A DNA stretch of 64,000 bases from contig OY755046.1 of the NCBI GenBank assembly GCA_963576565.1, forward strand, positions 62,903,379 to 62,967,378, read 5' to 3'. Made by a program: the position numbers and the translations under genes. The notes under the pieces were generated by a model, which was given only the letters and a program-made list of their open reading frames with translations, was not told the DNA's origin and ran no database searches. This DNA comes from Aspidapion aeneum. Its lineage: Eukaryota > Arthropoda > Insecta > Coleoptera > Brentidae. Positions 26,650 through 59,107 of the stretch are shown piece by piece. The stretch's first letter is position 1. Each line of letters begins with the position of its first letter.

Positions 26650-27120
26650 GTTAGTATTATTTAGCTCAAAAATTCCGCTGATTGATGCTCACGTGTCTAA
26701 TGGCGGGTAAAAACGCAATACGCGTTGATCTGGCCTGAAAGGCAGAAGAGCTGTCGTAGGTCACGGATTAGTTTGTTTCTTTTTATTTTTAATCGATCTT
26801 TTCATTGATCGATATGTATAGCAGTTTATTTTTGCCTGTTCTTGTTCTGGTTTTCTCGTATCTCGGTAGATGCCGCTTCTTGCGAGAGTTTTCTCACTAT
26901 TTACATCGGATTAGAGACAAAACCGTCTAATTAACTTCGCAAGAGTGTCCCATTGACCAAGGAGTATTCTGAGGAGTCCCATAAGGACGAAACAGTTAAC
27001 TGTCAACACTTATTAGGCGTCCAATACATCTTGGACCCCCGTAAGGTTGAGCTTTCAAGCTACCCACGGAAAGATATGAGAGAAACAAAAACTCCTTTTT
27101 ACCCGATTAGCCACGAAACT
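26650..27120 (+). mobile_element. Hammerhead-ribozyme repeat (retrozyme-like), copy 1
   Basis: A single, diverged unit matching the 515-nt repeat at 38415-38929 over its length: GTTAGTATTATTT start, TCATTGATCGATAT hairpin, CTCGGTAGATG, the hammerhead and the CTTGGACCCCCGT / CTACCCACGG hairpin. It is a circular permutation relative to the ribozyme cleavage site. Confidence 0.8.
26963..27010 (+). ncRNA. Type I hammerhead ribozyme, copy 1
   Basis: Core CTGAGGA (26969-26975), stem II GTCC/GGAC with CATAA loop, GAAA, stem III CAG/CTG with TTAA loop, cleavage GTC after 27004, then AACACT. Stem I here is AGTATT against AACACT with one A-C mismatch; stem III is fully Watson-Crick. Confidence 0.87.
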
Positions 27121-27365
27121 TGTTTGATATGTATTACATAAAATTGTAATTTATTTATAGAACGATCCCTTTATTTCTCTCTATTTTTTTTTAGATTTTA
27201 TTTATTATTTTAATTTTTTAACCAGGTTCAAAATATTTTCAAATAATCAAATTACAAAAATAATTAAAAATCAAAAAGGTAATTTAAAAAAATATAAAAA
27301 CACTATGCAAATCTAATAAAAAAAACTGTAATTCCACCAGAAACGTACCAAATTTTTGTAATATA

Positions 27366-27550
27366 CAGTCGAACCTCTATAACTCGAACCTGAAGGGACA
27401 ACCAAAATAGTTCGAGTTATGTAGAGTTCGAGTTATAGAAACTCGAGTTAAAAAGGTTTAAATACATGTAAAAAGTGCAGGGACCACTTAAAAGGTTCGA
27501 GTTATAGAGAGGTTCGAGTTATAGAGGTTCGAGTAAGAGAGGTTCGACTG
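27366..27550. mobile_element. Pogo-like MITE
   Basis: The 185-bp element has ends CAGTCGAACCTCT, repeated TTCGAGTTATAGA blocks, and TA on both sides. Typical Tc1/mariner-pogo non-autonomous element; no ORF. Confidence 0.88.
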
Positions 27551-28114
27551 TATCTCAAAAACTAAAAATGATAAAAAAATTTAATTTAACATTTGAATTT
27601 TTTATAAATAGGTCTATAAAAAACTAATTTACACCAAATTTTTTATATATAAAAAAGTTGTAGGCTTCAAGAACATGGAATTATAGTTTATTTTTATAAC
27701 AAAAGTTTCATAATTATAAGCTATTTTTGTAATTGAAGAGAAAATAAAATATAATACAATTTTCAGGCCAGGTTGAAATTGTTTTTAGCGGTTAACAAAT
27801 GCGCAAGAACCCCTTTACTTATTGATAAATGCAATTCCGACAAAATATCAAACCACTTTTATTAAAATAATTTATAAATGCAAAATTTGAAAGTTTCTAT
27901 CATGTGGTTGGGTTTGCCACAGTTTAAAGAAAATATTTTTAAAAAATGATTTTGACATATCAACTTTTAATTTTTATTAGCTCCTATCGATACAGGGTGC
28001 TATTTAATAAAATAAGTTTTTTTTTAAGTATTTTTTTTCTACGACCACATAATATGAACATAACGAAATTTGTACTATTTTCTGTTTTAGAAAGGTGCAT
28101 ATTCCAATACTCCT
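27551..28114. other. Unassigned A/T-rich stretch
   Basis: No recognisable feature. Confidence 0.5.
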
Positions 28115-28791
28115 CCAGGTAGCAAAGGGTCATCAAATGACGTCTTTTTTTCGTCGAAAAGTGGTCGTTTGGATGACCAGCAGGTCATCTACCAAAAAAT
28201 GTTATCTTTAAGGCGTCAGTTACTTGACGTCTTTTCGTAGTGTAGTTTTTGACGTCTGAAAAACGTCATATATTGTTCACTACCCACACTGCACACTTTG
28301 TCCAAGGGACATACACTTATACTTACATAGATGGTGCCTCAGTCAGTACTTGACCGGATTTATACGGAATGTGGGGGTACGTATGTAAAATAAATTAAAT
28401 ATTAAATCAGGACAAACTTCGAGGCTTCTTTCGCTTCAAGGTGGAGATGTGTATGTCTAGGTATAGGTTTATTTTGATCTGTACCTCACAGACGAACACC
28501 GCTGTACCTATTCCAGTACTTCCAGGTCTAAGTCACAGAAGAGTCACCTTCTGTGTCTAAGTTTCCTTCAGTGTTCTGAACTGCAGGGAATATTTCATAT
28601 ATTCAGACGAGTTTAAAAAAAGTCATAAATAGGTTTGTGTCTGTGTGGGTGTCTGATGTTCTAATTTGGTCCCAAATACGTCATATTGCTGACGTCTTTA
28701 AAACGTCTAAAAATACGTCAGGTTAGAGACGTCAATGGTCATTAAAAATGACCTGTTTTTGACGTTTAAAAAACGTGATCTTGCTACCTGG
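28115..28791. mobile_element. Possible MITE with CCAGGTAGCAA ends
   Basis: Both ends carry CCAGGTAGCAA as an inverted repeat followed by GACGTC/ACGTC-rich sub-terminal motifs. No coding sequence and no certain target duplication. The superfamily is unclear. Confidence 0.6.
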
Positions 28792-30049
28792 GCCAATTCC
28801 AATAGCCTTGTCAATGCCAATGTCACTGTCAAAAACCAATGTTTTGACAACCATATTTTTCTCTCTGGAGAAGAAGATAATTTCGTCTTGGAAGGAATGA
28901 AAATAATTTGATATACAAAAATAAAATATCGTGTGGTCGTAGGAAAAATAGCGTTCTACATAACTCGTTACAAAGTGAATTCCTTACAGTCGTGCGATTT
29001 TCGCACTCGACTAACGGCTCCCGCCAAAACTTTTACACGTGAAATATGTCCATTTCCCTTCACTTGTTATGTGATATACTATTTCTGAAATATTTGTTAT
29101 TTTGAGGTCCGAAAATAAAGCAGTTTTGTTTTTCAAATTAATTTTTTTTATGCATTTGAGGCAGTCTGCAGTGGCGGCAGGTGACGTTATAAATTAGGGG
29201 GGGGGGGCAGAAATTTATATTGCATGGAAAAGAAGATAAAAATACTTAAACATTTTTATTTTAGCATTTTACAAACAAGCAGCTACTTGCTATAGTTTTT
29301 AGTTTATTTTTTTATAGATAAAGTCTATTCGCCCTTCTTTTACATGCACAAACTGCTCAGATTAGCACCAGTTTCAGACTCATTTATTTTTATTTATTTA
29401 TTCAACGGACTAGCACCCATTTTACAAAAAGAGTTACATGTGTAGTCAATTAAAATTTAAAAATTATAAAAAATATGTTTTAGACCACTACTTATTTCTA
29501 ACTTCATCAAGAATGATTAAAAACGTATCAAATTTAAAAAATTATGCACATCACAATATAAATCTCTAAAGGTCAAGTTAAAACAAAAAATATGACTAAC
29601 AAACAAAAAACTAAAAGAAAAAGAAAGTTAGTTAACATTACTAGGTCTTTTACGCAGGAAACTTTTTAATTTGTTAATAGTAGAATTAAAAATATCAAGT
29701 TTAACTTTGTTAGAATTTGACATCATTCTGTCTATTGGAGATTGTTGGCCATACAAAGTATGATGAAAATTATTATAAAAAGTAAAAGTATTTCTAAGTG
29801 TGACAGTGGGAGTATGAAAGTTTAATAGTTATTTAAACAACAAGGTTTGAAAACGACTCTTTGCACACGATCGAGACAGTTTGGTAGACTGAGCCGAAGG
29901 CGAGGTCTACAAGTCGAGGGAGTGTGCAAAGAGGTTTTCAAACGAGTTTTTTACAATATTTTTTATACGACTGCTAATAAAGAAAGAAAAATCAAATTTT
30001 AATTTAACTTGTTTTTATTTCCGACATTTTTTCAACAAAACTTAAAAAT

Positions 30050-30330
30050 TCAACAATTTTTTGTTCTCCGGGCGCAAAACCCCCTTTTACAAGACAGTCG
30101 TATAAAAAAGTAATAAAAGATCTGGCGAGTCAATAATACCATTACAAGTTTCCACAGAAAAACTATGTCAAAATTAAACTTGCGTTTCTGAAGTGTTTCC
30201 AGATTTAAAAGTTTCAACAAATCGTCACAATTTGTATGTTCTTTAGGTATATGGAGTTTAAAGGCTACGTAATACAGAAATTTTTTCTGAACGCTCTGAC
30301 TCATCATGGCCCCGTAGAGCAACCTCAAAA
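30050..30330 (-). pseudogene. LINE ORF2 C-terminal remnant
   Basis: Reads HTNCDDLLKLLNLETLQKRK and FNFDIVFLWKLV, phrases usual near the end of insect non-LTR reverse transcriptases, before drifting out of frame. Confidence 0.65.
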
Positions 30331-31188
30331 ATCAAATGTCTATTTTTTGCCACATTTTCATTATGTTTGGTAATGTTTTGCCTATAGGCACTATTCAATT
30401 GGCACCTCATATCAGTCTTGCCTAGCATAAAAAAATTCTATGTGGTTATTTAAATAAGTAACACTTACTTTTCACTAAAGTACTTAAAAACACACATTCC
30501 GTTTGCTACCCACGCAGCATCACTTCGTGGATTGTTCATAATAAGACAAATAAAGCAAAAAAAAACATTTTGCACAACCAGGTTTCAGCATCGTGTAATT
30601 TTTTATTACTTGCACTAAAATTTTGGGTAATTTTTAGGATTTTTGGGTTCGTTCTATGTGGCCCTAAAGACTTTATTTGTAATCGAAGTTCATATGTCAA
30701 CGTATTTAAATTTGCACAATTAATTATATAATCGACGGTATTTATTTCAATTTTGAAAACAAACAAAAACAAACAATGGACACGCGACCGGCAAGGATTT
30801 TAACTACTGACCTACCCCAAATCAAAACAAACTCATACGTCTTCACTAAGAATAAAACCGGCAACACGTGGGAAGAGCAACAAACGTTTTCGCACGATGA
30901 ATATGGCCGACGTTAACAAAAACAAATATTTCCCCCGCTCCCGCGCGAGAACAGCCACCCACAAATAATTTTTTTTTGGAAACAAATGTATAAAAATTAA
31001 AATAAGATGTTTTTTCCTTTTCATAGGTCGTACACACCGTATGTCACCACCAATCTCTATATATCGTATATTATTCATTGGTCACCACTCGCGGGTTAAC
31101 TAGGCACAGGCTTTTTTCTGAATTTAAGTATGTTTTTTTCTACTATTTAGTGTTTTTTTTAAGACTTTGCTATTTATTTTTATACATG

Positions 31189-31192
<4 letters not shown>

Positions 31193-31234
<42 letters not shown>
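31193..31234. repeat. (TA)n tract
   Basis: Simple TA repeat abutting the foldback element. Confidence 0.95.
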
Positions 31235-31237
<3 letters not shown>

Positions 31238-31866
31238 TGTGTCCACGTAAGTTGGCGGCATATGGGAAACTTTTTTATTATTAGCTTTACGAAAAAAAGT
31301 TATTCTTCATAAAAAGTTCTGCATGGTCCAAAACCTAAAATGCAACCATCAGATGTTAAATTTTTTCAGTCATATAACGAGGTTTGTCAAAAAATGTGAT
31401 TTTTGCTCTAGAGTAAAGTACCTTTCTTTTTGACAATATCGAAAATTGTTATAAAGAAAAGATGTTTAGAATTAAAAATAGCTTTCAAATATTCAACATT
31501 GTTTATTTACATTATTATTATTTGCATCCTAGATTAATTATGCATTAATGTGCAAACTTAAAAAAATAAAAAATAAAAATATTTTTTTAATGTAAATAAA
31601 CAATGTTAACATTTGAAAGCTATTTTTAATTCTAAACATCTTTTCTTTATAACAATTTTCGATATTGTCAAAAAGAAAGGTACTTTACTCTAGAACAAAA
31701 ATCACATTTTTTGACAAACCTCGTAATATGACTGAAAAAATTTAACATCTGATGGTTGCATTTTAGGTTTTGGACCATGCAGAACTTTTTATGAAGAATA
31801 ACTTTTTTTCGTAAAGCTAATAATAAAAAAGTTTCCCATATGCCGCCAACTTACGTGGACACACTG
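31235..31866. mobile_element. Tc1/mariner-type foldback element, 632 bp
   Basis: Almost the whole element is one palindrome: CAGTGTGTCCACGTAAGTTG at both ends, arms of roughly 290 bp that match nearly perfectly, a short unique centre, and TA on both sides. It lies directly after a (TA)n run. Confidence 0.92.
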
Positions 31867-32383
31867 TATATTAAATAAGCATGGCTTTGTCAATGTTCAC
31901 TGTATCTATGACACTAAAGCTACTACGCCTTTTGTTAACTAAGATTAACTTTTTTTCCATAAATCAATTAAAAATACTGTTTGTTGTCTAGTTTTGGGAG
32001 AGCACCCGTTGCCCGCCCTGTAGACGCCGTCACTGGCAGTCTGTCATATAAAACATATGATGTCAAAGTTTTTAAATTTTAAATTTATTTGACCTGTTTT
32101 TGAACTTTTTCATAACGGTAATAAAGTATGTTTAGGTATACACGTCGTTTTCAAAATGAGTTTTAATTTTAAAAAAATTTAAATAGTCGTCTGAGACTTA
32201 CAACTAATTAAACGTCATTTAACAAAAATTGATTTTTAATGTTTTATTAGAAAGATACCTAACCTCACGTTGCTTCAAAACCTTCTGGAACTTTCCTAGT
32301 TGTTGTTCATTATAAGGGTGCGTGCCTTCATTACGAGATCGTTGTGATAGCCTCTATCAAACAAGAAGTCTTTTCTCAGCAAT

Positions 32384-32989
32384 GTAGTAGTAGTAGTAGT
32401 AGTAGTGGGGGGGTTGACCCGCAGGTCTGACAAGTAGGCCAGAGTAGGACCTTTTTGCCATGCCGCAAGTCTGTCCCTTAACCCACTCTCTGCACTTCCC
32501 TTTGATGGTTGGGTAACTCATTGGGCCTTCCTGTTCTCTTTACAAAGTCCAGTAAGTCTGCCCATTTGAGCATGTGCAGTTCCTCCTCGCTTAGAGTTGG
32601 CGCTCCGAGTGCCTGTTGTCTCATCCTTGCGTAGGCCTCGCATTCTGCCACGAGGTGTCTTGATGTCTCTTCTTCCTGTCCACAGGCTGGGCAGGTAGGG
32701 TCATTCTCGACTCCTATACGTGTCATGTGCCTCCTCAACCGGTTATGTCCGGTTAGAGTACCTATCAGCAGTCCGAGGTCTTTTCGTGTCCGTCCCAGCA
32801 TCCATCTAATTCTGGACTTTTGGACGATCTACGAATTCTCTGGTCTGTCTGCAACCCGTTCCTGTTTCCCAGGAGTTTAATAGCGCGTCCCTGGCCCATT
32901 TGTTGAGTCCGCTTTGCACTTGTCTTTTTGTCACGCCCAAAGTGGCTCCGGTCCTACATAGGCGGTTCCTGCCCCGAGTCGTGCGAGTG
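32384..32989 (-). mobile_element. R1/I-type LINE 3' fragment with 14-bp duplication
   Basis: CTTTTCTCAGCAAT flanks both sides (32370-32383, 32990-33003) and an (AGT)n tail marks the 3' end at the left. The minus-strand ORF at 32801-32478 reads GTLTGHNRLRRHM, CPACGQEEETSRHLVAECEA: the CCHC-like knuckle after the RNase H domain. Confidence 0.88.
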
Positions 32990-33049
32990 CTTTTCTCAGC
33001 AATTATATACTTTTAAATTTTTGTCTACTTGAGAGTACTATTGTAAATT

Positions 33050-33570
33050 ACTTGATTCAAATCAAGAGACGAGTAAGATTGGCCAGGGCAGCATTAAGTA
33101 AATTAAGCTACATATTAAAAAATAAAAAATATCCTCAGTACCTCAAAACAAAAGTGTATAACCAATGTATCCTTCCTGTACTTACCTATGAATCCCAGAC
33201 CTGAACACTTACAAAATCAAACATGGATAAGGTAACAAAAGCCCAAAGATCAATTGAAAGACAAATGTTACATGTAAAGCTAACAGATAAAAAAAGGAAT
33301 GAATGGATAAGAAATAAAACAAAATTAAGGGATGTCAGAGGAGAAGTAGCAAAGTTAAAATGAAAATTTGCCGGTCATAATATCAGACAGAAAGACGATC
33401 GATGGAACAAATGTATTGTAAACTGGAGACCTTGGGAAAATAAAAGAAGTAGGGGAAGATCCCAAATAAGATGGGCGGAAGATTTGAAAAAGCATGCGGG
33501 AACTAAATGGATAAACACAGCGACAGACAGAAAAAAGATGGATCGAAGAAGGCTAAATAGATAGATAGAC
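33050..33570 (+). pseudogene. RTE-like LINE C-terminal fragment
   Basis: Reads ILPVLTYESQT, KAQRSIERQML, KWINTATDRKKMDRRRLNR with several stops, and ends in an (ATAG)n tail. Same family as the fragment at 5845; a 50-bp remnant is at 59855. Confidence 0.8.
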
Positions 33571-34008
33571 CTTATTTGAAAGATTATTAAAAAATAAAAA
33601 CAAAACAAATTAAACATTTTTTTTGAAATTTGAATTACCCTATGACAAAAACAAATTATACCATTGTTTTTTATTGAAAAAATATTTTTTTCTTACATTT
33701 GATTTAAGGTATGTGAAAAAAAATTACTTTATTGTTTTTCTTTTCTCTTCCTCGGGTGTCCGACCAAAGTTTTTTGCGGCAGACAGAAAGCTCATTAAAG
33801 ACTTAGTTGACGTGTTTTTGTTTTTCTCCAAAAACCCAAATAATAACCCGCTTGAAGCAATATTTCATTAAAAATCGCCACCCTGTATATTATAAACTAA
33901 ACTTTTTACTTTTAAAATGTGAAATATTTTCCTGATTTTGATTTAAGTATTTTTAAATGAAAAAGGTAAAACAAATATTAAATCTTGACGAAATGTAGTC
34001 CTAGAAAT
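33571..34008. other. Unassigned A/T-rich stretch
   Basis: No recognisable feature. Confidence 0.5.
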
Positions 34009-34010
34009 AA

Positions 34011-34239
34011 TAGGGACCGGCTTATTGGAATAAAACCTGACCTTTTTTTCAAATCGACCGTATTGTGACAGATTTACATATAAAAAGCAGCTGCTTTCTC
34101 TCAAAATTCGGCCTTTGTGTATTTAAGAACCGGATTTATCAGTGACTGTTTTTACTAAATGAAAGTTAGCGTGTTTATTTTTAAATTTGACTTTGGTGTG
34201 TCAATTTTCCGAGGTCAGGCTTTATTCCAATAAGTCCCT
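34011..34239. mobile_element. MITE, AGGGAC...GTCCCT family (variant)
   Basis: Ends AGGGACCGGCTTATTGGAAT and AGGGACTTATTGGAATAAAG, with AAT on both sides; interior similar to the next copy. Confidence 0.75.
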
Positions 34240-34255
34240 AATAACTGCCAATTTT

Positions 34256-34535
34256 GGGGGGACTTATTGCAAAAAACCCAGGCAATAATTGTGCCGGGCA
34301 CTATTCTGACAGTTTCGCATTATAATAACAGCTGTCTTCTTTCAAAATTAGGCCTTTGTGTATTATATGAGCCAGAATTAATAGTGCCGTCATTATTAAT
34401 GGAAAATGAACGACTGGATTTAGAAATTCGACTTTGGTATGTCAATTTTGAAAGATCAACTGTCAGTTTTCAATGGAAAACTGTCAGAATAGTGCTCGAC
34501 ACTATTATTGCCTGGCTTTATTGCAATCGGTCCCG
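34256..34535. mobile_element. MITE, AGGGACTTATTGCAATAAAG family
   Basis: About 85-90% like 12374-12651 by eye, including TCTGACAGTTTCGCATTATA and TTTCAATGGAAAACTGTCA. The ends are slightly eroded. Confidence 0.78.
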
Positions 34536-34539
34536 AATA

Positions 34540-35260
34540 TTATACTATTTAACTTACCTTTCTTTTCTTCACAGAATACAAAAAAAATAAAAATAAGAAA
34601 AACTTGCGCGTTACCAAAAATTATTTTTCGAGTTTTTGAACGCGTGGGAATTTAGAGGTACAACAAAAAAACTCGTCAGTACGGGGTGTCACCAGAACGC
34701 GCGCCAAACATAGAAGTCAGTCAACAATGAACTAACCGTGTCCGCGACTAAAATTCGCTACCTGTAGTAGGTACCTAATCAACAATGTAAAAGAACCACA
34801 TATTATAGTAGGTATCAAAGCTAGTCGATTTAGCAAGAAAATGGCTTTGAAATGTGGTCACTACATCTGACCGCTGTCCGTATGTTTTCCGAAGATAACA
34901 ATCATAACAAAAACATTTCATGTAAAAAAAAGTCAAGCACGCGAAAATGATATTCCGAAAAAAGAACTGAGATAAAAGTAAACTCAAGTTCTATAATACA
35001 AATTTCAAAATGAAAGGTGCTAACTAGCTTGAAGCTGAAACGAACACATTATTTTGTTTAAATTTTAATTTTTGTGTACAGAAAAATGACGCGGGCTAAA
35101 AAAAATAACTGGTATATCTCAAAACTAATACTTTATAAGAATATACTAAAAAACTGTAGGAAAATTGCCTTAGTTTTCAAAAAATTCAAAGATATTAGTT
35201 GTTCATATCATATCTAACTTTTGTTTTCAAAAATCAGCTGGACCACCAGTGACGTGAAAA
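34540..35260. other. Unassigned stretch
   Basis: No recognisable feature. Confidence 0.4.
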
Positions 35261-35507
35261 ATTTCCGAAGACCCATCTAATTCTAGGGTCCGTGGTCCAC
35301 TTTGCAAAGATATGTCGTATAGCGCAGAATAGGGTGTTTGACAGTAGGAAAAATAAAATATTTATTTATTTTTAGTATCTCTTTAGGTCTCGGGAATGCT
35401 AAAAACAAACTTTTTTGTATAATTTTTTCTCAAATTCTAAGTCCTTTTAATTAAATAAATTCATTGAATTAAAACAATTAGACACGTGATTCAAACCAGG
35501 CGGTCTA

Positions 35508-35530
35508 CCAATCAGCTGCGAGTGACGTCA
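35508..35530 (+). promoter_or_regulatory. CCAAT box and CRE (TGACGTCA)
   Basis: CCAAT at 35508-35512 and a perfect palindromic TGACGTCA at 35523-35530 lie about 160 bp before the small plus-strand ORF, a plausible promoter. In A/T-rich DNA a perfect CRE is unlikely by chance but not decisive. Confidence 0.4.
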
Positions 35531-36185: not shown

Positions 36186-36263
36186 CACCTTTCTGCCTAT
36201 TATAGTTGTTGACCCCTTGTAATAAACATAACCACAAAAATTTGATCGTCATTTACGAAATAG

Positions 36264-36345: not shown

Positions 36346-36377
36346 AAAATTAATAGAAACAATTTAGTTATACTCAC

Positions 36378-37815: not shown

Positions 37816-38141
37816 AGTGGCGCACCCAGGAATGTGTCTTGGGGGGGGGGGCCGACAGCTACAAAGCGCGCCCTCAAAAAACTTGCGACCAAAAAAAAAA
37901 GGTCATGGTGTGTGGGGGAGGCCGACAGGTACAAAGCGCGCCCTCAAAAAACTTGCGACTAAAGAAACAAAAAAAAAAAAAAACAAGGTCATTATGTCTT
38001 TTCGCAACTACGCCACTGCTTGGGGTTGGGGGGGCCCGAAGCCTCCTGATGTCAAATTTTAAGGTATTTTTCATGTTTTATCATCAAATATGTAGAAAAT
38101 ATATTAAAAAACTAAGGCTTGGGGGGGCCCGGGCAGTTTTG
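37816..38141. mobile_element. Partial hAT-like poly-G MITE
   Basis: Starts CAGTGGCGCACCCAGGAAT and contains internal duplicated AAAGCGCGCCCTC / ACTTGCGAC(C/T)AAA units. The right end is missing: the sequence passes straight into the hammerhead repeat at about 38142. Confidence 0.7.
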
Positions 38142-38372
38142 TCTCTAATCAAATGTAATTAGTGAGCGAACTATAGCAAGAGGCGCCATCTACTGAGATA
38201 CGAGAGAAACAAAAAACCAACAGCAGGCAAAAACACTGCTATACAATATCGATCAATGAAAAGATCGAATGCAAATAAAAGAAAACAACTATAGTCCGTG
38301 ACCTACGATAGCTCTTTGTCTTTTCTTCAAAACCGTCTGATTAACTTCGCAAGATTTGTCACATTGACCAGC

Positions 38373-38420
38373 AGTGTTCTGAGGAGTCCCATAAGGACGA
38401 AACGGTTAACTGTCAACACT
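38373..38420 (+). ncRNA. Type I hammerhead ribozyme, copy 2
   Basis: Stem I AGTGTT/AACACT, core CTGAGGA, stem II GTCC/GGAC (loop CATAA), GAAA, stem III CGG/CTG (one G-U pair, loop TTAA), predicted cleavage after GTC at 38414. Confidence 0.92.
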
Positions 38421-38887
38421 TATTAGGTGTCCATTAGATCTTGGACCCCCGTGAGTTTAAGCTTTCGGGCTACCCACGGAAAAATATGAGAGAAACAAAA
38501 AACTCCTTTTTGCCCGATTAGCCATGAAACTTAATTGATTTTTAAATTCACGGGTACGAAATTTCACGTTTGTTAGTATTATTTGGCTTAAAAATTCCGT
38601 TGATTGACGCTCACTGTCTTGATGACGGGTAAAAATGCAAAATGCGTTGATCCGGCCTGAAAAGACAAAGAGCTGTCGTAGGTCACGGATTATAGTTGTT
38701 TTCTTTTATTTGCATTCGATCTTTTCATTGATCGATATTGTATAGCAGTGTTTTTGCCTGCTGTTGGTTTTTTGTTTCTCTCGTATCTCGGTAGATGGCG
38801 CCTCTTGCTATAGTTCGCTCACTAATTACATTTAATTAGAGACAAAACCGTCTGATTAACTTCGCAAGATTTGTCACATTGACCAGC

Positions 38888-38935
38888 AGTGTTCTGAGGA
38901 GTCCCATAAGGACGAAACGGTTAACTGTCAACACT
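38888..38935 (+). ncRNA. Type I hammerhead ribozyme, copy 3
   Basis: Identical to copy 2 in every core and stem position; predicted cleavage after 38929. Confidence 0.92.
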
Positions 38936-39214
38936 TATTAGGTGTCCATTAGATCTTGGACCCCCGTGAGGTTAAGCTTTCGGGCTACCCACGGAAAAAT
39001 ATGAGAGAAACAAAAAACTCCTTTTTGCCCGATTAGCCATGAAACTTAATTGATTTGTAGGCATTATTCTTTGGATAAATGTGTACCTAATATTACGATT
39101 TTTGGGCGATTATTAAAGAAGTACCTATCAAGTCTGCTAATATAACGGACTTCCCTACCAAGTCGATAAAAAAACCGGACAGGTGGTAACCCTAAAATTA
39201 CCACTTGTCTAAGG

Positions 39215-39621: not shown

Positions 39622-41372
<1,751 letters not shown>

Positions 41373-44747: not shown

Positions 44748-45380
44748 TGGGGTAGGCTCTAGGCCTGGCGACTAGGCACATGAAGCGCCCTTTTCGCCAA
44801 CCCCCGGGCATCCCCCCTACTGCGTCCTTCCCTCGCTAAGGAATCTGCCCGTCTTCTGTACAGAGGCCAGAATATCAGGCCACCTCAGATTCAGAAGGTC
44901 CTCCGTCTCAAAGGCCTCCTCTTCGAATACCTCTCTTCTTGCCTCCTTGTATGCTTCACATGATGAGAGAAAATGCGCCGAGGTCTCGTCCTCGGCCCAA
45001 CATCGCTCGCACGTCGCGTCCTCCTTCACTCTCATCTTTGCCAGGTGTCCTTGTAGGACGCAGTGTCCGGTCAGGACTCCCACTATGGCTCCCACCTCTC
45101 TTCGTGTTCTACGGAGCAGCCAGTCCCTACAGGATTTGCTGTAGCCTGTCACATACTCCTTCGCCTGTCTGGCGTTTCCTGTGTTGGTCCACTCCCTTTG
45201 TATCTCTTTCTGGGTCCACTCTGTTAGGGCCGACTTCATTTGCCCTCTTGTGAACCCCAGGAACGGTTCTGGCCCGACGCATTTCTGCTGGGATCCTCCC
45301 CTGGCGAGTCTGTCCGCTTTCTCGTTTCCGGGGACTCCCACGTGACCTGGGACCCATACGAGCTCTACCTCTCTTACGCC
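44710..45380 (-). mobile_element. R1/I-type LINE 3' fragment with RNase H
   Basis: The minus-strand frame reads VWVPGHVGVPGNEKADRLAR (RNase H end), GVLTGHCVLQGHLAKM and CERCWAEDETSAHFLSSCEA (zinc knuckle). An (AGT)n tail lies at 44710-44746 and GTAGAATAG flanks both sides (44701-44709, 45381-45389). The 5' part is truncated. Confidence 0.9.
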
Positions 45381-45389
45381 GTAGAATAG

Positions 45390-46600
45390 AAAAATTCTTA
45401 AAAAAATCTCGAAAAATTTCAAAATTCTCAAAGGTGTCATAGGAAGTTCAAAATTCGTATCTACACATAACTTTAACCTCTGCAGGTTAAAGTAAATGAA
45501 CATCTAAAAAGTACCCCAACAAACAATTAAAGTTGTAACGACGAAACCCCAACTAGAAAGAATTTCTTAAAAGTAACCGCAACGTACTCCCGCTACGTCT
45601 CAGTATACCATACAGCGACGTTATAATTCCCTAAGTGGGGAACCAATTTCTGGTTATAACTACTTGACCAAGTGTTTAAAGTCACTGTAGTAACAACTAC
45701 ACTACTACGTCGTAGCCAGGTATCTACTACGTCGTAGAGGCTGTTTTTTTTCCGTAATGGCATAAAAGTTGCGATGTAGTTGCAAATAATATAATCGTTT
45801 CTTTTTGGTAGAATTGTTACACAATATGGTGGACACAACAGTAAACAGACTCGCTTAGTTTTTTTGTTTGGTTATGGTTATAATATGAACTATGTTATCC
45901 AAAAGTGTGAGAATTTACGAGCAGAGGATCAAAATTCGAGTGCGACGCAAAGTTTTTTGTATAACATGCATTATATATATTGCAAAAAACCGGTGCGCCC
46001 GTAAAATTGAGCCGTTTTTTGGTAGCTGATGGAATTTTTGTGTTGTGATTTTGGAGGTTATGTTTTCATAATCGACAGTTAACTACAACAAATGGTGCTT
46101 AAGAAGAGCATTTTTGGTAAGCTTCAACTAATTTGTTTATAAAATAGTATGGCTCTTTAATATGAGCTCATAAAACGACAACAAAAATATTAAATTTTCT
46201 TTCTTACATAAAAACATGGCGTCCCAAACTATATTCCCTGATAGTCGAAAAGGTTACTTGAAAGTAGTTGCGACTTCAAAGTTGATCCAGAAAGTTATTT
46301 TGTCTACATTATTACATCAGATGTTACTATGATGGCACAAACTTTTGTGGTAAAAATTAAAGTTATAATGTAGTTGTCGGATACACTTGTTTGGGACTCC
46401 AATGAAGCTTAACTTTCTAGTGGTAATTAAGTAGGATATAAAAGTCAGGGCGACTACGAAATAACGACTAAAAAGAAAGTAAAACTTTAGCAACGTCCTA
46501 TTGTGGTAGAGAAGACTATCAGAATCGACTATCAAGAAACAATCCTATGAAGTAGTTTAGAGGGTCGTTTTTACGAAACATCTACTATTTCCTGATACTA
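45390..46600. other. Region before the Penelope-like ORF, unassigned
   Basis: Contains CTACTACGTCGTAG repeats near 45700 and may include 5' parts of the Penelope-like element, but no reverse transcriptase motif is visible. Confidence 0.35.
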
Positions 46601-50486: not shown

Positions 50487-52010
50487 CAGCGTGTCCCATT
50501 TTCGATGGGATTAAATGGGAAACTCGGTTGTTATTAATGATATCGATTTTCTGATTGCACCTTACCGTGCTCTCTTTTGGAGCCCTTAAAAATGGTGTAA
50601 TCAGATTTTTGCTATACCCCGTGGTTTCGCTAATACAGGGAGTTTTTGAAAAAATTGCATTTTAATTAATTCCTTGTATCTCGCTTATTTTGCAAGATAT
50701 TTTTATTCTGTAAAAACCTTTCTATGGCAACTTTTTTAGAGCAAAATAATGACGTTGTCAATTTTTAAAAATATTGTTTAGTTTTTGAGATATGGTATTT
50801 ATCATAAAAAAATTAAATACGGACCTGGATTTTTTTTAATACTACTTTGATTAGTTCCATGCTATTATTACCTTAAAATGATAAAACTTTAATATTTTTT
50901 TGATTTAAGGTTAAAAAAAGCTATTTAATATTTGAAAAAAAAAATATAGTCCGAACCTGGAAATTTCCAACGTAATTATAAATTAAAAATTGCAAGACAC
51001 ACTAGTTAAACGATTTTTAGTTTATCTGTTTTGAAATGATAATTAAAAGATTTATAAATAAAGTAAAAAAACGTTAAAAAGTTACAAAAATAATATCATA
51101 CTAATTATTTGATAACCGAACAGCAGGTCGTGAAATTTACAAAACAAAAGCGTGGAATTGACATTGTCATTTTACTTGTCATTTTTGTAAATGGCTTACA
51201 ATTATTTTAAACTGGTTAGAAATCGACCATATCCAGATTTTGAAAAATGTGATATGTTTGACTGCTTCATTCAAGCAACAAAATCCCAATATTTAAATGG
51301 CAGAAATATTTTTATGCAAAATGCGTTAAGAAAAATTACTTATGTCTTACACATAATGTCTTACACATAATGATAATCAGAAAGATTAGTTCTTTTTTAT
51401 AATTTGTTTTTTTTTGTATTTTTCGTAGACTTTGTTTCAAATAAATCTGTAAATTAACGTAAAACCATTTTAATATCAAAACAGTTAAATTAAAAATTGT
51501 TTCACTAGCAATTTTTAGTTTATATTTATGTTGGAAATATCCAGTTTCGGACTAATTTTTTTTTTAAATATTAAATTTTTTTTTTACCCTAAAACAAAAT
51601 TTTTTTAAATGTTTATTATTTTATGATAATACTAGCATGAAACCAATCAAAAAAATAATTAAAAAAATCCAGGTCCGTATTTAATTTTTTTATGATAAAT
51701 ACCATATCTCAAAAACTAAACAATATTTTAAAAAATTGACACCGTCATTATTTTCTTCTAAAAAAGTTGCCATAAAAATGTTTTTACAGAATAAAAGTAT
51801 CTCGCAAAATAAGCGAGATACAAGGGATTATTAAAAATACAATTTTTTCAAAAACTCCCTGTATTAGCGAAACTACGGGGTATAGCAAAAATCTGATTAC
51901 GCCATTTTTAAGGGCTCAAAAAAAGAGCACGGTAAGGTGCAATCAGAAAATCAATATCTTTAATAATAACCGAGTTTCCCATTTAATCCCATCGAAAATG
52001 GGACACGCTG
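50487..52010. mobile_element. Large Tc1/mariner-type foldback element, 1.5 kb
   Basis: CAGCGTGTCCCATTTTCGAT occurs at both ends as an inverted repeat, with TA on both sides. The arms match inwards for roughly 550-600 bp with increasing divergence, leaving a unique centre of about 350 bp at 51070-51410. Confidence 0.88.
51191..51370 (+). CDS. Small ORF in the unique centre of the foldback element
   Basis: A 59-codon ORF starting MAYNYFKLVRNRPYPDFEKC, lying between the arms. It vaguely resembles N-terminal segments found before insect mariner-type HTH domains, but I do not recognise it firmly. It could be a remnant of the parental transposase or captured host sequence. Confidence 0.3.
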   Translation: MAYNYFKLVRNRPYPDFEKCDMFDCFIQATKSQYLNGRNIFMQNALRKITYVLHIMSYT

Positions 52011-52012
52011 TA

Positions 52013-52597
52013 TAATAAAAAAGGGAAAATATCAAAAATACCGTACGTAAAAAACCCACATACTGTGCTATAAATCATAAAGGCACACTTTTTGAGTCCA
52101 AAAAGAAAAAGTCTCATAATTTTCAATTTTCTAAAGCAACAAAAGACTTTAGAAAAACAACAATGCTTTTATTTCTGCTTCAGTGACCACGGAAGGACTT
52201 TAAACGCTAAGAATAAAAAACCCACATTAAGCATACCTATTTTGTTCCATTGAAATCCATACATTCGATATGTGGACACCGGGGATTTTGTTTAGAGTAT
52301 TTTTGTCCTAAAAGCAGCTGTTTTTTGAAATAATCTCCTATCACCTGGAGTATCAAATTAAAGGTGTAACAAAGAAAAACAAAATCGTGTGCCCGAAGGT
52401 TCTGACCATAAGTCCCTTCCCGCTTAGGTTGAGTTTCAGTTTGTTTTTGTATTTTTATTTTAAAAATAATATTATATCATAACAAAAACATTTCATGTTA
52501 AAAAAAGCCAAATTCGCGGAAATGGTATTCCGTAAAAAGAATTGAGATAAAAGTAAAGCCAAGTTCTCCAATACAAATTCCAAAATCAAAGGTTTGG
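52013..52597. other. Unassigned stretch
   Basis: No recognisable feature. Confidence 0.45.
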
Positions 52598-53430
52598 AAA
52601 TGTTTTTTAAACTTTATCATCATATACTCCATGTCTTCTTTATCATTAGCTACAATAGCTTGGTCGTCAGCAAACTGTAGTGTGTATATGGTAAATCGGT
52701 CGCTAAATTGTATTCCCATGTCGTGCACTTTACGTATCCAGTTTTTTAGAGCTACTGCGATATATATTTTAAAAAGAGTTCGAAAAATACAACATCCCGA
52801 CTTCAGCCTTTCGTTACCGGGAATTCCTTTGAAAGTCGATTTCCAATTTTGATTTTAGATTTTGACCTCTTGTATAGTTCTTGCTTTCACACTGTCCATA
52901 ATTTTTCTTCTGGAACAGTATCATATGCTTTTTGTAGGTCCAAAAAGATGTATGTCTCTATATTTCTGGCGCTCCTTTTCTCAATTACTTGTTTAAGAGA
53001 AAAAATATTATTACTACAAGATCTGCCTGCACGAAAGCCACTTTGCTCTTCTTCTTCTTCTTGTTCATGAAAATCATTCTCTATTAGATCTCTAAGAATC
53101 CTACCGTACAATCTACTTAGAGTGCTGGTGACTGAAATTCCACTGTAATTGTTACAATCCAGCTTGTTTGCTTTTTTATGTATTGAGGATATGAATGCAA
53201 TTTTCCAATCATTAGGTATTGGATGTCCGTTTATGCATTGATTGATAATATATGTGAGATTTTCGAGTAGTTTCTCTGATCCATATTTGAGCATTTCAAC
53301 ATATATTTCCTCAGGTCCGCTTGCTTTTCCGGATTTAAGCTTTATGAGACTATTCTGTATCATTTCTTTTTGATGATCACTTCCTCTCCATATACTTCTA
53401 TGTCTCTCCTCGGAGAGGCTGACAGATATT
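52598..53430 (-). pseudogene. RTE-like LINE reverse transcriptase fragment
   Basis: The minus-strand ORF at 53363-52887 reads GKASGPEEIYVEML, WKIAFISSIHKK, SGFRAGRSC and FLDLQKAYDTVP; after a frame change LQFADDQAIVANDKEDMEYM follows. Same family as 19866-22903, and it preserves the empty site for the Harbinger-like insertion. No C-terminal part. Confidence 0.85.
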
Positions 53431-53451
53431 TTAGGATAACGAAGTTAGAAG

Positions 53452-53521
53452 TAGAGTCCCTGTATGTTGACATATTTGGATATATTAATATATCCAAATA
53501 TGTCAACATACAGGGACTCTA
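53452..53521. mobile_element. 70-bp hAT-like micro-MITE, second copy
   Basis: A perfect palindrome starting TAGAGTCCCTGTATGTTGAC, flanked by GTTAGAAG at 53444-53451 and 53522-53529. Same family as 6690-6746. Confidence 0.9.
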
Positions 53522-53663
53522 GTTAGAAGGAACTTCGTGATATAGTGACCTTAAGATATTCGGGTCTCGTATAACTATAACCTTTATTACATTTAAAAAA
53601 ATCTAAGCCCTGTAAGAAAAAAACGTGATACTTTGGAGTCCGCTATATTTTTTCATACGAACT

Positions 53664-53740
<77 letters not shown>
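53664..53740. repeat. (TA)n tract
   Basis: Simple TA repeat broken by a short CATACAAA segment. Confidence 0.95.
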
Positions 53741-53742
<2 letters not shown>

Positions 53743-54126
53743 GCAATAATACTGATCGTGTGAGGATCGCTTAATATTTCTTTACTTAAGTAACCTTTGC
53801 AATAATCACAAAATTGTTTCAGGCAAAATTAGTTGTTCCTATGCAAAAGTAAAGTCTTATTTCTAATTTATCGTAAAAGGGAAGTACACACGGGTCCAGA
53901 AAAATTAAATTGCCACCTACATGACTTTTGTCCGAGGATAGGGATATCCGCTTCCTGTTTTTTTGCAGAAAAAATGCCGCTCTGTAAAACGTACAATAAG
54001 TAACTTCCGCCCTTAAATCGACTGCCACCCGTTTCAATCCTCTTTTGAAGAGGAAACAAAAATAAATTTACTAAATACATATTAAGAATCTGGTGCATAA
54101 GCAAATAATTGCCTTTTGGCTATGGG

Positions 54127-54510
54127 TTCACTAAAGTAGACCGGATCATTTGGTAAAGATACATTTAGTGACGATCATTGTGTGTAGATAAAAAACCTTC
54201 GGCCGTTTTGGCAAAGGTTTACTAAAGTAGACCGGGGCCATTGGTAAAGAAACATTTAAAAAAGATCATGATGTGTAGGAAAAGAACCTTCGGCGATTTT
54301 GGCAAAGGTTTCCTAAAGTAGACCGGGGCTTTGACAAAAGAAACATTTAAAGACAATCATGGTCTTGCATAGGTTCTTGAAAGTTGACCGGGGCTTTTGA
54401 TAAAGATACATTTAAAGACGATCATGGTGTGTAGGAAAATAACCTCCGGCTTTTTTGGTAACGGTACACCAAAGTTGACCGAGTCTTTTGCTTAAAAGAA
54501 ACGTTTAAAA
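54127..54510 (+). repeat. 91-bp tandem repeat, about four units
   Basis: The phrase (A/C)CTAAAGTAGACCGG recurs at about 54130, 54221, 54311 and 54466, with an extra partial unit near 54375. Units share GATCATG.TGTGTAG and CCTTCGGC. Confidence 0.85.
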
Positions 54511-54697
54511 ACGATCAATTGTGAATTGTGCTCTGTCTTAGGAAAGATAAGCGACTAAGTTTTAAATAAGACTTTCCCAGTTTTAAGGGCTATTTCCGGT
54601 GATCTCATTTGGGCCTTTTTTTTGTAATAAAAATTGGTTGAAACTAATGGGTTCACACTTCCTTCACGGAGAAGATTAAAGATCCCGGTAATAGACA

Positions 54698-55014
54698 GTG
54701 GCGGCGCGTGAGGTTCAAAAGTAGCGGTTCTGCAAAGTAGGGAACAAAGACAAATTTAAAAAATAATAAAAACTTAGCCAATTTTTAGATTTTGTTAAGT
54801 CACAATAATCGGGCGTAAAACACAGATTTTTAAGTTTTATTTTTAAAGTGTCCCCCCCCCTCCCGAAGCTAAGATTTTTTTAGATATTTGCCACATATTT
54901 CATGAATACAAACATAAAATGGGATAAAATACGGCCTCATGCGGTCTCGCCCCCCCCCCCCCTTCCCAAAACTATCTCGGCCCCCCCCCTTCGAAACTAT
55001 TTCTATATACGCCA
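54698..55014. mobile_element. hAT-like poly-C MITE, degraded
   Basis: CAGTGGCGG at the left and ACGCCACTG at the right with poly-C blocks and the CATATTTCATGAATA stretch shared with 75-1360. No clear target duplication. Confidence 0.55.
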
Positions 55015-55434
55015 CTGTACATAGGTAATAGATGGTCTTTTTATTTTTATATACATATATAGTTCACTGCGTCTGTCTTTTTTATTGGCAAAGCATTCAA
55101 TCACTTTTTATCACTAAATATTACAAAATTAAAAATGCCTTTGCTTTGGCAAAAAATATAATAAACATTCGCTCATAAACGTAACGTAATTTGTTTAAAA
55201 CTACCCCGATTTTCTAAGATTTTGCATAGCTGTGACGTCAGTTGAATCGTTCTATCCTTTTTAATAATAATATGTGGTACAATCTGTATTAATCCGTACT
55301 TTATTCAGGGGAGTGTGATTAACAGATCCGACAAAATCCACTGCGCTTATACACAGCGCACAACGGCCACCACACCACGACAAGAGACCAAATAGCAAAC
55401 AAGGATATTAAAAACGTAGGCTTGCACCTCGTAC

Positions 55435-55804
55435 CAGCGGCGTAGCGTGCCCGAAAGGGCGGGGGGGGGCGACAGCTAAAAAGGGCGCCTCTGAAAACTG
55501 ATGAAAAATCTTACGGCAAAAAAAAAACCAAAAGGTCAAAAAGGCGCCTCTCACAAATCTTGCGACCAAAACAAAAAAAAAAAAAAAGGTCATCATATGT
55601 CAGGGGGCGGCCGATAAGTCACCAGGGCGCCTCTGACGAATCTTGCAACTAAAAAAAAAAAAAAAAACAAAAAAAAAAAAAGGTCATCATGTATGAGGGG
55701 GCGGCCGATACGTCACAAGGGCGCCTCTCCCACCTATGGGGCGCCACTACCCTCGGGACGGGGGGGGCGACGAACCCCCCGCGCCCCCCCACGCTACGCC
55801 GCTG
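55435..55804. mobile_element. hAT MITE, CAGCGGCGTAGCG family, copy 1
   Basis: Ends CAGCGGCGTAGCG(T) as inverted repeats, perfect 8-bp duplication CCTCGTAC (55427-55434, 55805-55812), and internal repeats of GGGCGCCTCTCACAAATCTT followed by A-runs and GGTCATCATG. Confidence 0.93.
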
Positions 55805-55812
55805 CCTCGTAC

Positions 55813-57290
55813 CAATTGTACAAATGTTGTAGGCATGTACCTTCCCAAGTGCGGATTGGAGGGGGGTAACGTGGTAATTACCCCCTCCCCTAGAAAAAAA
55901 AAGCACTTTTTATTAATGATTAAAGGGAAAATAGGAGAACTACCCCCCTAGAAAAAAAATTTATATTACAAATAATTTTTTTGTAGACTATTACCCCCCC
56001 CTAGATTTTGACCCAGATCCATGCTTGTACCTTCCTAACTCCACCGGCTTACACATGGGGGGGTACTGGGGGTAATTACCCCCCAAGATTGATGGAAGGA
56101 TTTTTTCACAAAAATTCAAAGTTTTTGCCTCTCACCTGCCCCATCCTGGCTTTAGCTCATTTAGTAATACGAGAATTAAAGGGAAAATAAATATTTGATT
56201 GTATATTTTTTGCTTTTTTGCCCTACCCTGAGCGAGACCCTAACTACGCCCATGACCCTTAGTGATATTTGTTTAAAATTAACTAAATTACCTAAATTTG
56301 TAGAGTAACACAGATAATATGTGCTCCTATTTAGCAAGTGTTGCAAACTGTTGTTTGACTAAATTACCCCTCCGAAGATCAGGGTCTGGATACGCCACTG
56401 CTTACCTCTCTCAAAATGTGCCTAGATTGCCTAATTTTTAGTAATTTTTTTGATAGATTTTTTGCCTAGAACCATTTTACTTATGGCAATGGAGTTTTAA
56501 ATGCGTCTCTTCTTAAAAGTGCAAAAAAGATTATTTCAAAATTTGCAAACCTTTGCCCAAACAAGTGTTATTTCAAAACCCTTACAATTAAACTTTTGCC
56601 TACAATATATAATATTTTAATTCCGATATAACTCTGCACCGCCTCCACAGGAAATTTTAATTATTTTATAGTTCCCCTGTATATTAAATACTTTTCCCAT
56701 AAAATAGTTATTTCAAAAGCTGTCAAATTTTTTAAGCAAAGGTCTTCAGTTGAATCTCGCGTACTACCTAATAAATAAAGAAGAAAGAAAACAAAAATTT
56801 TCATATAGTAATAGGCAAGATTTCGAAAAATTCACTTTCTAGTTGCATTTGATATTACTTTTTGGCAAATGGGCAGTTCCCCCGATTTTAACCCCGCTGA
56901 ATCCGAATATCCCTGTTGCCAACTCGAAATATTGACAGGGGCTGAGATATTCAAGATGGCGTTTGATATGGCGGCGAAATTTTAAATTGCTGTAAAGCTC
57001 AAATTGCCACAGGTGTACATGTAAAAATTTTAAAAAAATATATTTTTTGGAGCGTCCATTTTACTCAATGGAGGAGTATTTTGAGCAAGGCTGAGTCATT
57101 GACTTATTTTATTTTATTTGTTTTTTTTTTATTTGGGTGTAATAAGTATGTATATTGTTCTTTTTAATCTAATTGTAATTAAATTATTCTAACTAGGAAT
57201 CCAATGTTGTATACCAAATCTAGTTTTGGCATTGAAATGTAACCATTTGAAAGCTTTCAATAAAATACATGGTTAGACAGAGAGCCACTT
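55813..57290. other. Unassigned stretch with poly-C/G patches
   Basis: Contains GTAATTACCCCC-type patches (55870-56090) and a GATACGCCACTGC end-like motif at 56391 that may be hAT MITE debris; otherwise nothing. Confidence 0.4.
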
Positions 57291-57299
57291 TGGTTTGCG

Positions 57300-57571
57300 A
57301 TAAAAATGTATATTTAAAGTTACATTTAAAGTTCCTTTTCTCTTTGGATCTATTTGATATCATTAGGTGAAATTTATTTATTTTTTAATTTATTTTTGCT
57401 TTATTTTATTTATTTATTTTTTGTTTAGGTTGATTAGGTACTGTATATTTTATGTTCCTGTACTTGATTATACATTTTTAACTTATTTAGACTAATTACT
57501 ATTGCAATTGACGTTTTCCATACAGTTTCTAAATTGTCGAAGGAAAATAAAGATTTATTTATTTATTTATT
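57300..57571 (+). mobile_element. Possible LINE 3' UTR with (ATTT)n tail
   Basis: The sequence ends AATAAAGATTTATTTATTT, the usual polyadenylation-like end plus short-repeat tail of several insect non-LTR families. No ORF is attached. Confidence 0.4.
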
Positions 57572-58690
57572 TAAAATATATATTTATATAACTAAAAAAT
57601 AATATCATAGATTTTTTTTATTGGCTGCAAAGACCTTCAAAAACCACCCCAGACCCCCCAAAATCTGAAAGTTTGAGGTTTTTTTTTAATTTTCTTTAAA
57701 ACTGAGCTTCTAAGAGTAAGTAAAATGTCCTTTTTAATAAGGTATAACTCAATGCAGTTAGATTGTTAACAAACTCTTCAGCGGCGTCCGTTAGTTAAAA
57801 TAGTTTAAAAAAGTTAAAAAATTAAAATGTTTTTTCCAAGATTTATTCATTTTTTTAAAAGCTAATATCTACAGAAAAACATGTGGTATGCTTTGTTATA
57901 GACAAGGAAATTGCCTTTTTAACAGAGTAAATTTTGGTGGTGTTTGACTTATTGCAAACTTTACAGTTACGTCCGTAAATGGCGGTGGTGATTTAAAAAA
58001 TTCACTAAAAAAAACATGTTTTTCACACGTTTTATTCAATTTTCTAAAAAACCAAGCTCTTTATCAGAAAATGTGTGTTACACTTCGTCATAGACAATAA
58101 ACTTTTCTTTCAAACGATGTACAACAAAGCAATAGTTATTTTATAGTTTTCGCTCCAGTGGGGTCCTTATAATAAAGTAATTATTTAAAAACACCAAAAT
58201 AATCAATTTTTTTACAAACTAAGCTTTGTACGACAAAATCTCTTCTAAACCTTTTGGTGGATAAAGAAATTTTGTTTTAAATGACGCCTAACAAAATGTG
58301 ATAGAAAATATGGCTAACCCTCTAGGGACGTCCGTATTTTAGGGTCACTATTAAAAATTACCAAAAAAACATTTTTGTAAAATTTTCTTTCAAACTAATG
58401 TCTATAGGATAGAACAAGTTAAAAAGTTATTTTTTTCCTAATAAGCTTATATTTAAAATTAAAGAAAGAAAAATTATAAAAATTAATTTTACTTGTTGTT
58501 ATATTGGCAATCGCTCACTGCGATCAGAAATTTTGACACACGAAAAAGGTGATCTCATGTTTTCAGAAGTTGAAACTTTACGTCTAATTTGAGTTTTCGT
58601 ACCTTCGACAGTGGGAAAGAAGAATTATAGAAATCAGTTGAATGGCTTATTCGAGTTAATACCCTGAGAATTTCTCGTTCTTGTATTCAG
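57572..58690. other. Unassigned A/T-rich stretch
   Basis: No recognisable feature. Confidence 0.5.
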
Positions 58691-58691
58691 A

Positions 58692-59107
58692 CACCTACGG
58701 TAGGTCACGGACTATAGTTGTTTTCTTTTATTTGCATTCGATCTTTTCATTGATCGATATTGTATAGCAGTGTTTTTCCCCGCTTTTGGTTTTTTTGTTT
58801 CTCTTGTATCTCGGTAGATGGCGCCTCTTGCTATAGTTCGCTCACTAATTACATTTAATTATAGACAAAACCCTCTGATTAACTTCGCAAGATTTGTCAC
58901 GTGACCAGCAGTGTTCTGAGGAGTCCCATAAGGACGAAACGGTTAACTGTCAACACTTATTAGGTGTCCATTAGATCTTGGACCCCCGTGAGGTTAAGCT
59001 TTCAAGCTACCCACGGAAAAATATAAGGAAAACAAAAAACTCCTTTTTGCCCGATTAGCCATGAAACTTGTTTGATTTTTAAATTCACGGGTACGAAATT
59101 TCACGTT
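58692..59107 (+). mobile_element. Hammerhead-ribozyme repeat, copy with single ribozyme
   Basis: Matches the 515-nt unit from GTAGGTCACGGACTATAGTT through the ribozyme to AAATTTCACGTTTG, about 80% of one unit. Confidence 0.82.
58910..58957 (+). ncRNA. Type I hammerhead ribozyme, copy 4
   Basis: Stem I AGTGTT/AACACT, CTGAGGA, GTCC-CATAA-GGAC, GAAA, CGG-TTAA-CTG; cleavage predicted after 58951. Same sequence as copies 2 and 3. Confidence 0.92.

Follow-up and report, generated by a model that had tools for sequence, protein, structure and literature searches.

A hammerhead ribozyme repeat of the beetle Aspidapion aeneum: a retrozyme-like family with head-to-head insertions and two alternative 3′ ends

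How does a short, non-coding repeat that carries a ribozyme come to lie at thousands of sites in an insect genome? The question is raised by a 64,000-nt stretch of the genome of Aspidapion aeneum (Coleoptera, Brentidae; GenBank assembly GCA_963576565.1, contig OY755046.1, forward-strand positions 62,903,379 to 62,967,378), hereafter called the window, which belongs to contig C9 of the 1.286-Gb assembly. A first-pass annotation, made from the sequence alone, described a family of complete type I hammerhead ribozymes within a dispersed repeat. The family bears on the movement of animal retrozymes, for which Penelope elements have been put forward as strong candidate helpers (Cervera and de la Pena 2020, PMC7229834, in the portion available). 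It also bears on the origin of the inverted copies and the one-sided tail of Penelope itself, as a short element with about 10,000 copies gives statistical power. In our reading, the repeat is a retrozyme of the animal type, a retrotransposon that is non-coding and non-autonomous, and a Penelope-like reverse transcriptase (RT)/GIY-YIG endonuclease mobilizes it in trans. We put the probability of this reading at roughly three in four.

The observation of four type I hammerhead copies on the plus strand of the window is confirmed. The core sequence CTGAGGAGTCCCATAAGGACGAAA, with every invariant base, occurs exactly at 26969, 38379, 38894, and 58916. The defining features of the class, i.e., CUGANGA, GAAA, (G)UH, and three stems with the structure open at stem I, are found, and three of the four copies are complete, with full stem I pairing as the annotation had said. 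The motifs are as follows, in window numbering.

26963–27010, plus strand: type I hammerhead motif with five of six stem I pairs and one A-C mismatch; stem III palindromic (ACAG-UUAA-CUGU); predicted cut 27004/27005; Rfam match at 26964–27027, 23.6 bits
38373–38420, plus strand: type I hammerhead motif, 14 of 14 stem pairs; predicted cut 38414/38415
38888–38935, plus strand: type I hammerhead motif, 14 of 14 stem pairs; predicted cut 38929/38930
58910–58957, plus strand: type I hammerhead motif, 14 of 14 stem pairs; predicted cut 58951/58952

The predicted cuts at 38414/38415 and 58951/58952 match those of the annotation, and the other two are further predicted sites. Both strands of the window were scanned for a full motif, consisting of the core, a stem II of at least 4 bp, a stem III of at least 3 bp, GUC, and a stem I of at least 5 bp. 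It was found on the plus strand at 38379, 38894, and 58916 and nowhere on the minus strand; the A-C mismatch is the sole reason that the copy at 26963 fails the scan. Its occurrence is far above chance: 400 dinucleotide shuffles of the window, scanned on both strands, yielded one full motif in all.

The Rfam hammerhead model RF00163 aligns to all four copies in place, with scores of 24.7, 24.7, 24.7, and 23.6 bits (E 0.13–0.31 in the whole-window search). None reaches the gathering score of 34 bits, which is the library cut-off and not a structural definition. When the search space was a 241-nt segment, one copy gave an E of 0.00049 with no non-standard pairs. The annotation had named a covariance score below threshold as grounds for giving up its claim, and formally the scores do lie there. 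Yet the genome (149 contigs) contains 9,968 instances of the exact core, 4,909 on the forward and 5,059 on the reverse strand, against none on either strand in the reversed control. The statement that all copies are on the plus strand thus holds for the window and not for the genome. Lifting the constraint on stem II raises the count to 11,660 (5,742 forward and 5,918 reverse; control 0). The exact core had no match in either of two other collections searched, one of viral contigs and one of genome contigs.

The motif scan and the repeat structure show that the annotation was correct in placing a family of hammerhead motifs within a dispersed repeat. What it missed is the host element, a retrozyme-like unit of about 515 nt that occurs in tandem and head-to-head, with two 3′ ends and with target-site duplications (TSDs). 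Self-comparison of the window defines this unit, which is non-coding and has a GC content of 39–40%. Copies end either at a position that we call S (...TTGAT, unit position ~490) or 33 nt beyond, at a position that we call L (...TTTCACGTTTGT, unit position ~523). The longest stop-free stretches in the three complete window insertions are 66, 82, and 48 amino acids; an RT plus GIY-YIG open reading frame (ORF) of the Penelope type is absent from the window insertions. The insertions and their parts are as follows.

26644–27133, plus strand: one-armed monomer insertion with its 5′ end near unit position 1 and an S 3′ end; 86% identity to the window's main unit; no TSD found
38136–38325, minus strand: inverted arm, the reverse complement of 38659–38848 (98%), head-to-head with the plus arm; outer end internal (unit 283)
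38328–38573, plus strand: 5′-truncated unit of the plus arm, reading past S into the L tail and directly into the next unit (self-comparison, alignment)
38545–38573, plus strand: final 29 nt of the optional 33-nt tail between S and L (alignment)
38566–39059, plus strand: complete unit (reference unit 1–494) with an S 3′ end at ~39055 (self-comparison, end analysis)
58700–59110, plus strand: one-armed insertion, 5′-truncated, with an L (tailed) 3′ end (self-comparison, alignment)
63960–64000, plus strand: fifth insertion, dimeric, truncated within the first core (unit 332 on)

In the insertion at 38136–39059, a 190-nt inverted arm precedes roughly 1.5 direct units. That is, the motifs at 38373 and 38888, annotated as separate loci, are real, and both are units of this one dimeric insertion. 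The fifth insertion extends past the window, where its continuation (L075) holds a second unit that is complete and ends at S.

Tandem and divergent arrangements recur throughout the genome. The exact tandem junction is present 1,052 times (498 forward and 554 reverse; control 0), one run having 15 plus-strand junctions at C1:126458171–126466302, and same-strand cores are spaced at 513–532. The first 100 core sites include 14 pairs of neighbors on opposite strands no more than 700 bp apart, all of them divergent and none convergent; among the first 100 junction sites, opposite-strand pairs within 2 kb are divergent in 11 cases and, again, convergent in none. The only convergent core pair, with its cores 934 bp apart, belongs to two separate elements.

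The ends were analyzed in 62 element rows (55 + 7) drawn from L009–L051, i.e., all 43 consecutive core clusters of contig C1 up to 3.2 Mb, from the window, and from six later loci, L069–L074. Of the later loci, L070–L074 were chosen as divergent pairs (five of the six remaining in the list) and L069 as the convergent pair. Four end calls involved a decision: L010, L036, and L070 were taken as L despite alignments that run past 523 into unit 1–17, 1–29, and 1–15, respectively, and the left end of L038, at 480, was taken as S. Thirty-two of the 62 rows are two-armed, with a minus arm on the left, a plus arm on the right, and the 3′ ends pointing outward. Of these, 24 have S or L at both outer ends, and all 24 combine one S with one L (17 with S on the left, 7 with L on the left); S/S and L/L combinations do not occur (binomial p 1.2e-7). 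Shuffling the 48 ends 20,000 times gave at most 22 mixed insertions of 24. TSDs of at least 8 bp flank 22 of the 24 S/L insertions, with a mean over all 24 of 11.1. As the TSD of an insertion we took the best exact repeat lying no further than 14 nt from each border. AT-rich repeats, of which there are several, are covered by a swapped-flank control (mean 2.1; at least 8 bp in 5.6% of 552). Together, the S/L pairing and the TSDs tie a hammerhead retrozyme to insertion of the Penelope type, and they favor a single priming on each strand, with different starts.

An inverted arm might also be a 5′ inversion produced by twin priming of the LINE (long interspersed nuclear element) type, in which a single RNA is copied and the second cDNA is primed internally. 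The window dimer at 38136–39059 fits such an event in that its arms abut, overlapping by 6 nt, and the outer end of the inverted arm is internal. More broadly, 8 of the 32 two-armed insertions have one internal outer end (at unit 76, 286, 429, 62, 284, 242, 234, and 283), the intact end being S in six and L in two. Twin priming predicts second-arm ends that are scattered, whereas the other 24 have S or L at both outer ends. As a general mechanism it was rejected on this ground, and as an account of the family it is improbable. The internally ended arms of L011, L024, and the window insertion at 38136, three of the eight, stop at nearly the same unit position (283–286).

Sequence differences between arms bear on the number of RNA templates. 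Only segments of at least about 150 nt and at least 88% identity were compared (68 segments). Within insertions, the difference at variable sites is 0.00–0.17 in 17 of 18 comparisons (12 of opposite arms and 6 of tandem units), whereas between insertions it averages 0.32; the arms of L016 differ by 0.35. Single within-insertion identities prove little, because 7% of between-insertion pairs are identical too. The comparison suggests that both cDNAs of an insertion would usually derive from the same or sister RNAs and sometimes from two different RNAs. Self-priming on an antisense template has been suggested as the origin of the inverted Penelope copies of A. vaga (PMC3846280, in the portion available). 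It would yield the head-to-head structure, with long inverted repeats and close pairs exclusively head-to-head, as we see. A fold-back copy should, however, have identical termini on its two arms, whereas S is joined to L in every one of the 24 insertions, and the L016 arms differ as unrelated copies do. We give self-priming hardly any weight.

Does the genome offer a suitable helper? At least 91 GIY-YIG matches were scored in it. At one locus, read over adjoining stretches, RVT_1 (E 2.8e-7) occurs together with GIY-YIG (E 1.7e-7), and by tblastn the endonuclease of this locus has matches in 14 of 16 GIY-YIG loci that were fetched. Judged by these predicted domains, the genome encodes a Penelope-type RT/endonuclease. 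A scan of the 16 loci under a relaxed core, allowing an unpaired base before stem II, found a hammerhead-like motif in 11, with CTGANGA intact in 9 of the 11. The core is broken in L055 and L056, and L067 has a G at the cleavage position. These motifs have no helix III loop; that is, the cleavage triplet follows almost directly after GAAA. L055 and L056 share ~38 nt past the stop point of several other loci, as a tail would. The Penelope-type loci L052–L067 often end beside TA-rich repeats, and their minimal hammerhead-like motifs are of several kinds.

The presence of such genes raises the alternative that the unit is the pseudo-long terminal repeat (pLTR) of an autonomous Penelope whose ORF has been lost, in which case the family would consist of solo pLTRs and would not be a retrozyme in its own right. 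The insertion anatomy is the same as that of Penelope. In addition, some copies (e.g., L069, by eye) have a short open frame that begins at an ATG, crosses S, and enters the tail, paralleling the pLTR and tail that cover the ORF start in the available portion of PMC3846280. The genomic copies speak against this derivation in three respects, as follows. None of the 16 sampled GIY-YIG 3′ regions shares sequence with the unit. Their motifs are without a helix III loop, whereas the unit has a helix III of 4 bp closed by a UUAA loop. Finally, a tblastn search of the 50 unit-bearing loci and the window, with the RT and endonuclease of one Penelope family as the query, found coding remnants in 3 of the 50 (L019, L023, and L046), none of them arranged as a pLTR followed by an ORF in order and direction. 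We regard a solo-pLTR origin as possible, on the unlikely side. In L023, the L end of the unit is directly adjoined by a decayed RT remnant of Penelope, interrupted by in-frame stops, and RT and endonuclease remnants lie 3 kb upstream. An RT running into the unit was considered for this locus and rejected: the decayed remnant is beside the insertion, and the alignment merely carried on.

The first-pass annotation held the conserved block to be probably under selection as RNA, and its interpretation as a whole is partly supported. Support for selection extends to a block of about 120 nt, larger than the ribozyme, and is weak or absent in four less divergent lineages. The reference copy of the block is as follows.

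38874–38993, plus strand: conserved block (unit 309–428) with the hammerhead and two hairpins, 38941–38963 and 38964–38994 (identity profile, Fisher test, fold)

Between the main family and subfamily Y (L032, L033, and L048), unit 309–428 is 97% identical, against 71–72% elsewhere (Fisher p ≤2e-10, with block limits set after viewing the profile and gaps excluded from the count). Conservation of the block is weaker in L044 (p 0.0007) and L041 (p 0.025) and is not significant for the copy at 26644 (p 0.21) and L069 (p 0.14). Exchange of the block between lineages is a possible alternative source of its identity. A by-product of the exact-core search was ruled out, as the block reaches far past the 24-nt search word. 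Folding gives a z of -2.8 for the block. In a circular fold, the 515-nt monomer is predicted to be more stable than 60 shuffles (z -4.2), and this modeled stability agrees with the self-paired circles reported for retrozymes. Subfamily Y, with 76% overall identity to the main unit by blast, is also found in tandem and with S and L ends.

Is the hammerhead itself used? Stem III reads AC(G/A)G-UUAA-CUGU, and its A form is a 12-nt palindrome; therefore, dimeric ribozymes would be possible, by analogy with the amphibian repeats of PMC7229834 (in the portion available). Of 81 projected copies, 79 are full length, and 64 of the 79 keep the complete motif, an upper estimate because the copies were mostly picked by the exact core. 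Among the first 100 free-stem sites, stem II is changed in 12, of which six, including the two double changes given below, keep all four pairs and six break one (by eye). An inactive hammerhead, in a repeat that spreads without using it, is favored by the Rfam score under the cut-off and by these stem II variants, which look largely neutral. An inert relic does not fit with a full motif that appeared once in 400 shuffles, with a block conserved between subfamilies, or with the two sites, C1:2823358 and C1:4262617, at which a C-G pair in stem II has become U-A by a double change. We consider it very improbable.

Several results weigh against the retrozyme reading with a Penelope-like helper, beginning with the Rfam scores below the gathering threshold. 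In none of the three complete window insertions is there a convincing TSD, nor are both ends at S or L. Thirty of the 62 rows are one-armed elements or fragments, and a repeat of at least 8 bp was found for 4 of 22 one-armed elements (L027, L041, L046, and L049, that of L041 being 20 nt off). Because 8 of the 32 two-armed insertions end internally, with a TSD of at least 8 bp in only one of the eight, paired S/L priming is not the sole route. As for the helper, the RT was checked at one locus only, and GIY-YIG alone is not specific to Penelope. Moreover, no Penelope with the 3′ end of the unit was found: by blast, the unit matches 0 of the 16 GIY-YIG loci sampled from at least 91.

We suggest that a retrozyme of this kind would move as follows. 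Tandem copies would be transcribed, and the hammerhead would cut the transcript into 515-nt monomers, some of which would probably be closed into circles. A Penelope-type protein would bind the conserved hairpins downstream of the ribozyme, and staggered cuts, about 12 bp apart, would open both strands of the target. Both DNA ends would then serve as primers, one for a reverse transcription from S (unit ~490) and the other for one from L (unit ~523). The two cDNAs would extend until they stop, and their inner ends would be joined head-to-head. Seamless 515-nt tandems could arise by rolling-circle reverse transcription of a circular monomer or, equally, from transcripts of tandem DNA.

Parts of this scheme have precedents in the lizard Penelope protein, which cleaves and extends both strands in vitro and starts reverse transcription at two adjacent internal sites, which explain the tail (PMC11167929). 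The lizard protein also requires a region around and downstream of the ribozyme (PMC11167929), from which we infer, by analogy, that the hairpins of the conserved block may be the recognition site of the helper. In its strict form, the proposal is that every complete insertion represents two reverse transcriptions, one per strand of a staggered break, with obligatorily different starts, S and, 33 nt downstream, L. Target-primed reverse transcription by Penelope-type machinery would then take an asymmetric form with two primers, sometimes using two RNAs, and a ribozyme-bearing parasite would be borrowing it. We lean slightly towards the strict form.

Retrozymes with type I hammerheads and the anatomy of Penelope insertions are already known. 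Penelope-style ends in a retrozyme family, together with strict S/L pairing, appear to be new; in the open-licence literature searched, we found no report of such pairing or of head-to-head retrozymes, and what is said there of the Penelope tail is qualitative. The family resembles the metazoan non-LTR retrozymes of PMC7229834, as described in the available portion of that paper, in its type I hammerhead, its non-coding unit of low GC content, its tandem units, its TSDs of more than 4 bp, and the Penelope-type genes in the same genome. It differs in the length of the unit, 515 nt here against ~170–400 nt there (a descriptive range), and in the head-to-head S and L arms, which are not described in that portion.

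With Penelope, the family shares head-to-head inverted arms, TSDs of 8–10 bp, partial tandems, an optional tail of ~30–40 nt at one end (33 nt here), and a hammerhead upstream of the RT start (PMC11167929 and the available portion of PMC3846280). In the latter, the pLTRs are inverted head-to-head, a 31-bp tail is optional on one of them, and the TSDs are 8–10 bp. The unit departs from Penelope in having no RT plus GIY-YIG ORF, in having a real helix III in place of a minimal hammerhead without a helix III loop, in its ~10,000 copies, and in the S/L pairing of 24 insertions of 24.

Two further hammerhead repeats invite comparison. The pDo500 satellite of Dolichopoda (PMC2837043, in the portion available) is likewise an insect repeat with a hammerhead, 463–505 bp long; compared by description only, it is satellite DNA, whereas here dispersed insertions with TSDs are found beside tandem arrays. 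The newt and axolotl hammerhead repeats (PMC7229834, again as far as available) have a short helix III with a palindromic tetraloop, which makes dimeric ribozymes possible. The counterpart here is ACAG-UUAA-CUGU, with a helix III of 4 bp, longer than in the amphibian motifs.

Other features of the window are as follows. A 672-amino acid open frame on the minus strand (14203–16221) has no Pfam match and has 412 related proteins; among the 120 listed, the eight named by organism are uncharacterised insect proteins, in keeping with an insect host. RT fragments (RVT_1 in four, one just under the cut-off) and one RNase H are found at 149–739, 20528–21001, 22432–22917, 44817–45503, and 52887–53444, probably from non-LTR retrotransposons. 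Long CTGT tetranucleotide arrays, with several frames open on both strands, occupy 17635–18236 and 39626–40908. A hairpin of more than 200 nt at 4048–4311, with a sub-threshold MIR841 match of 80.9 bits, is probably a foldback element. Near-perfect palindromes of ~70 nt at 6682–6753 and 53453–53520 both contain AGAGTCCCTGTATGTTGACATATTTG and have sub-threshold matches to Rfam miRNA families; they probably belong to one family of small inverted-repeat elements.

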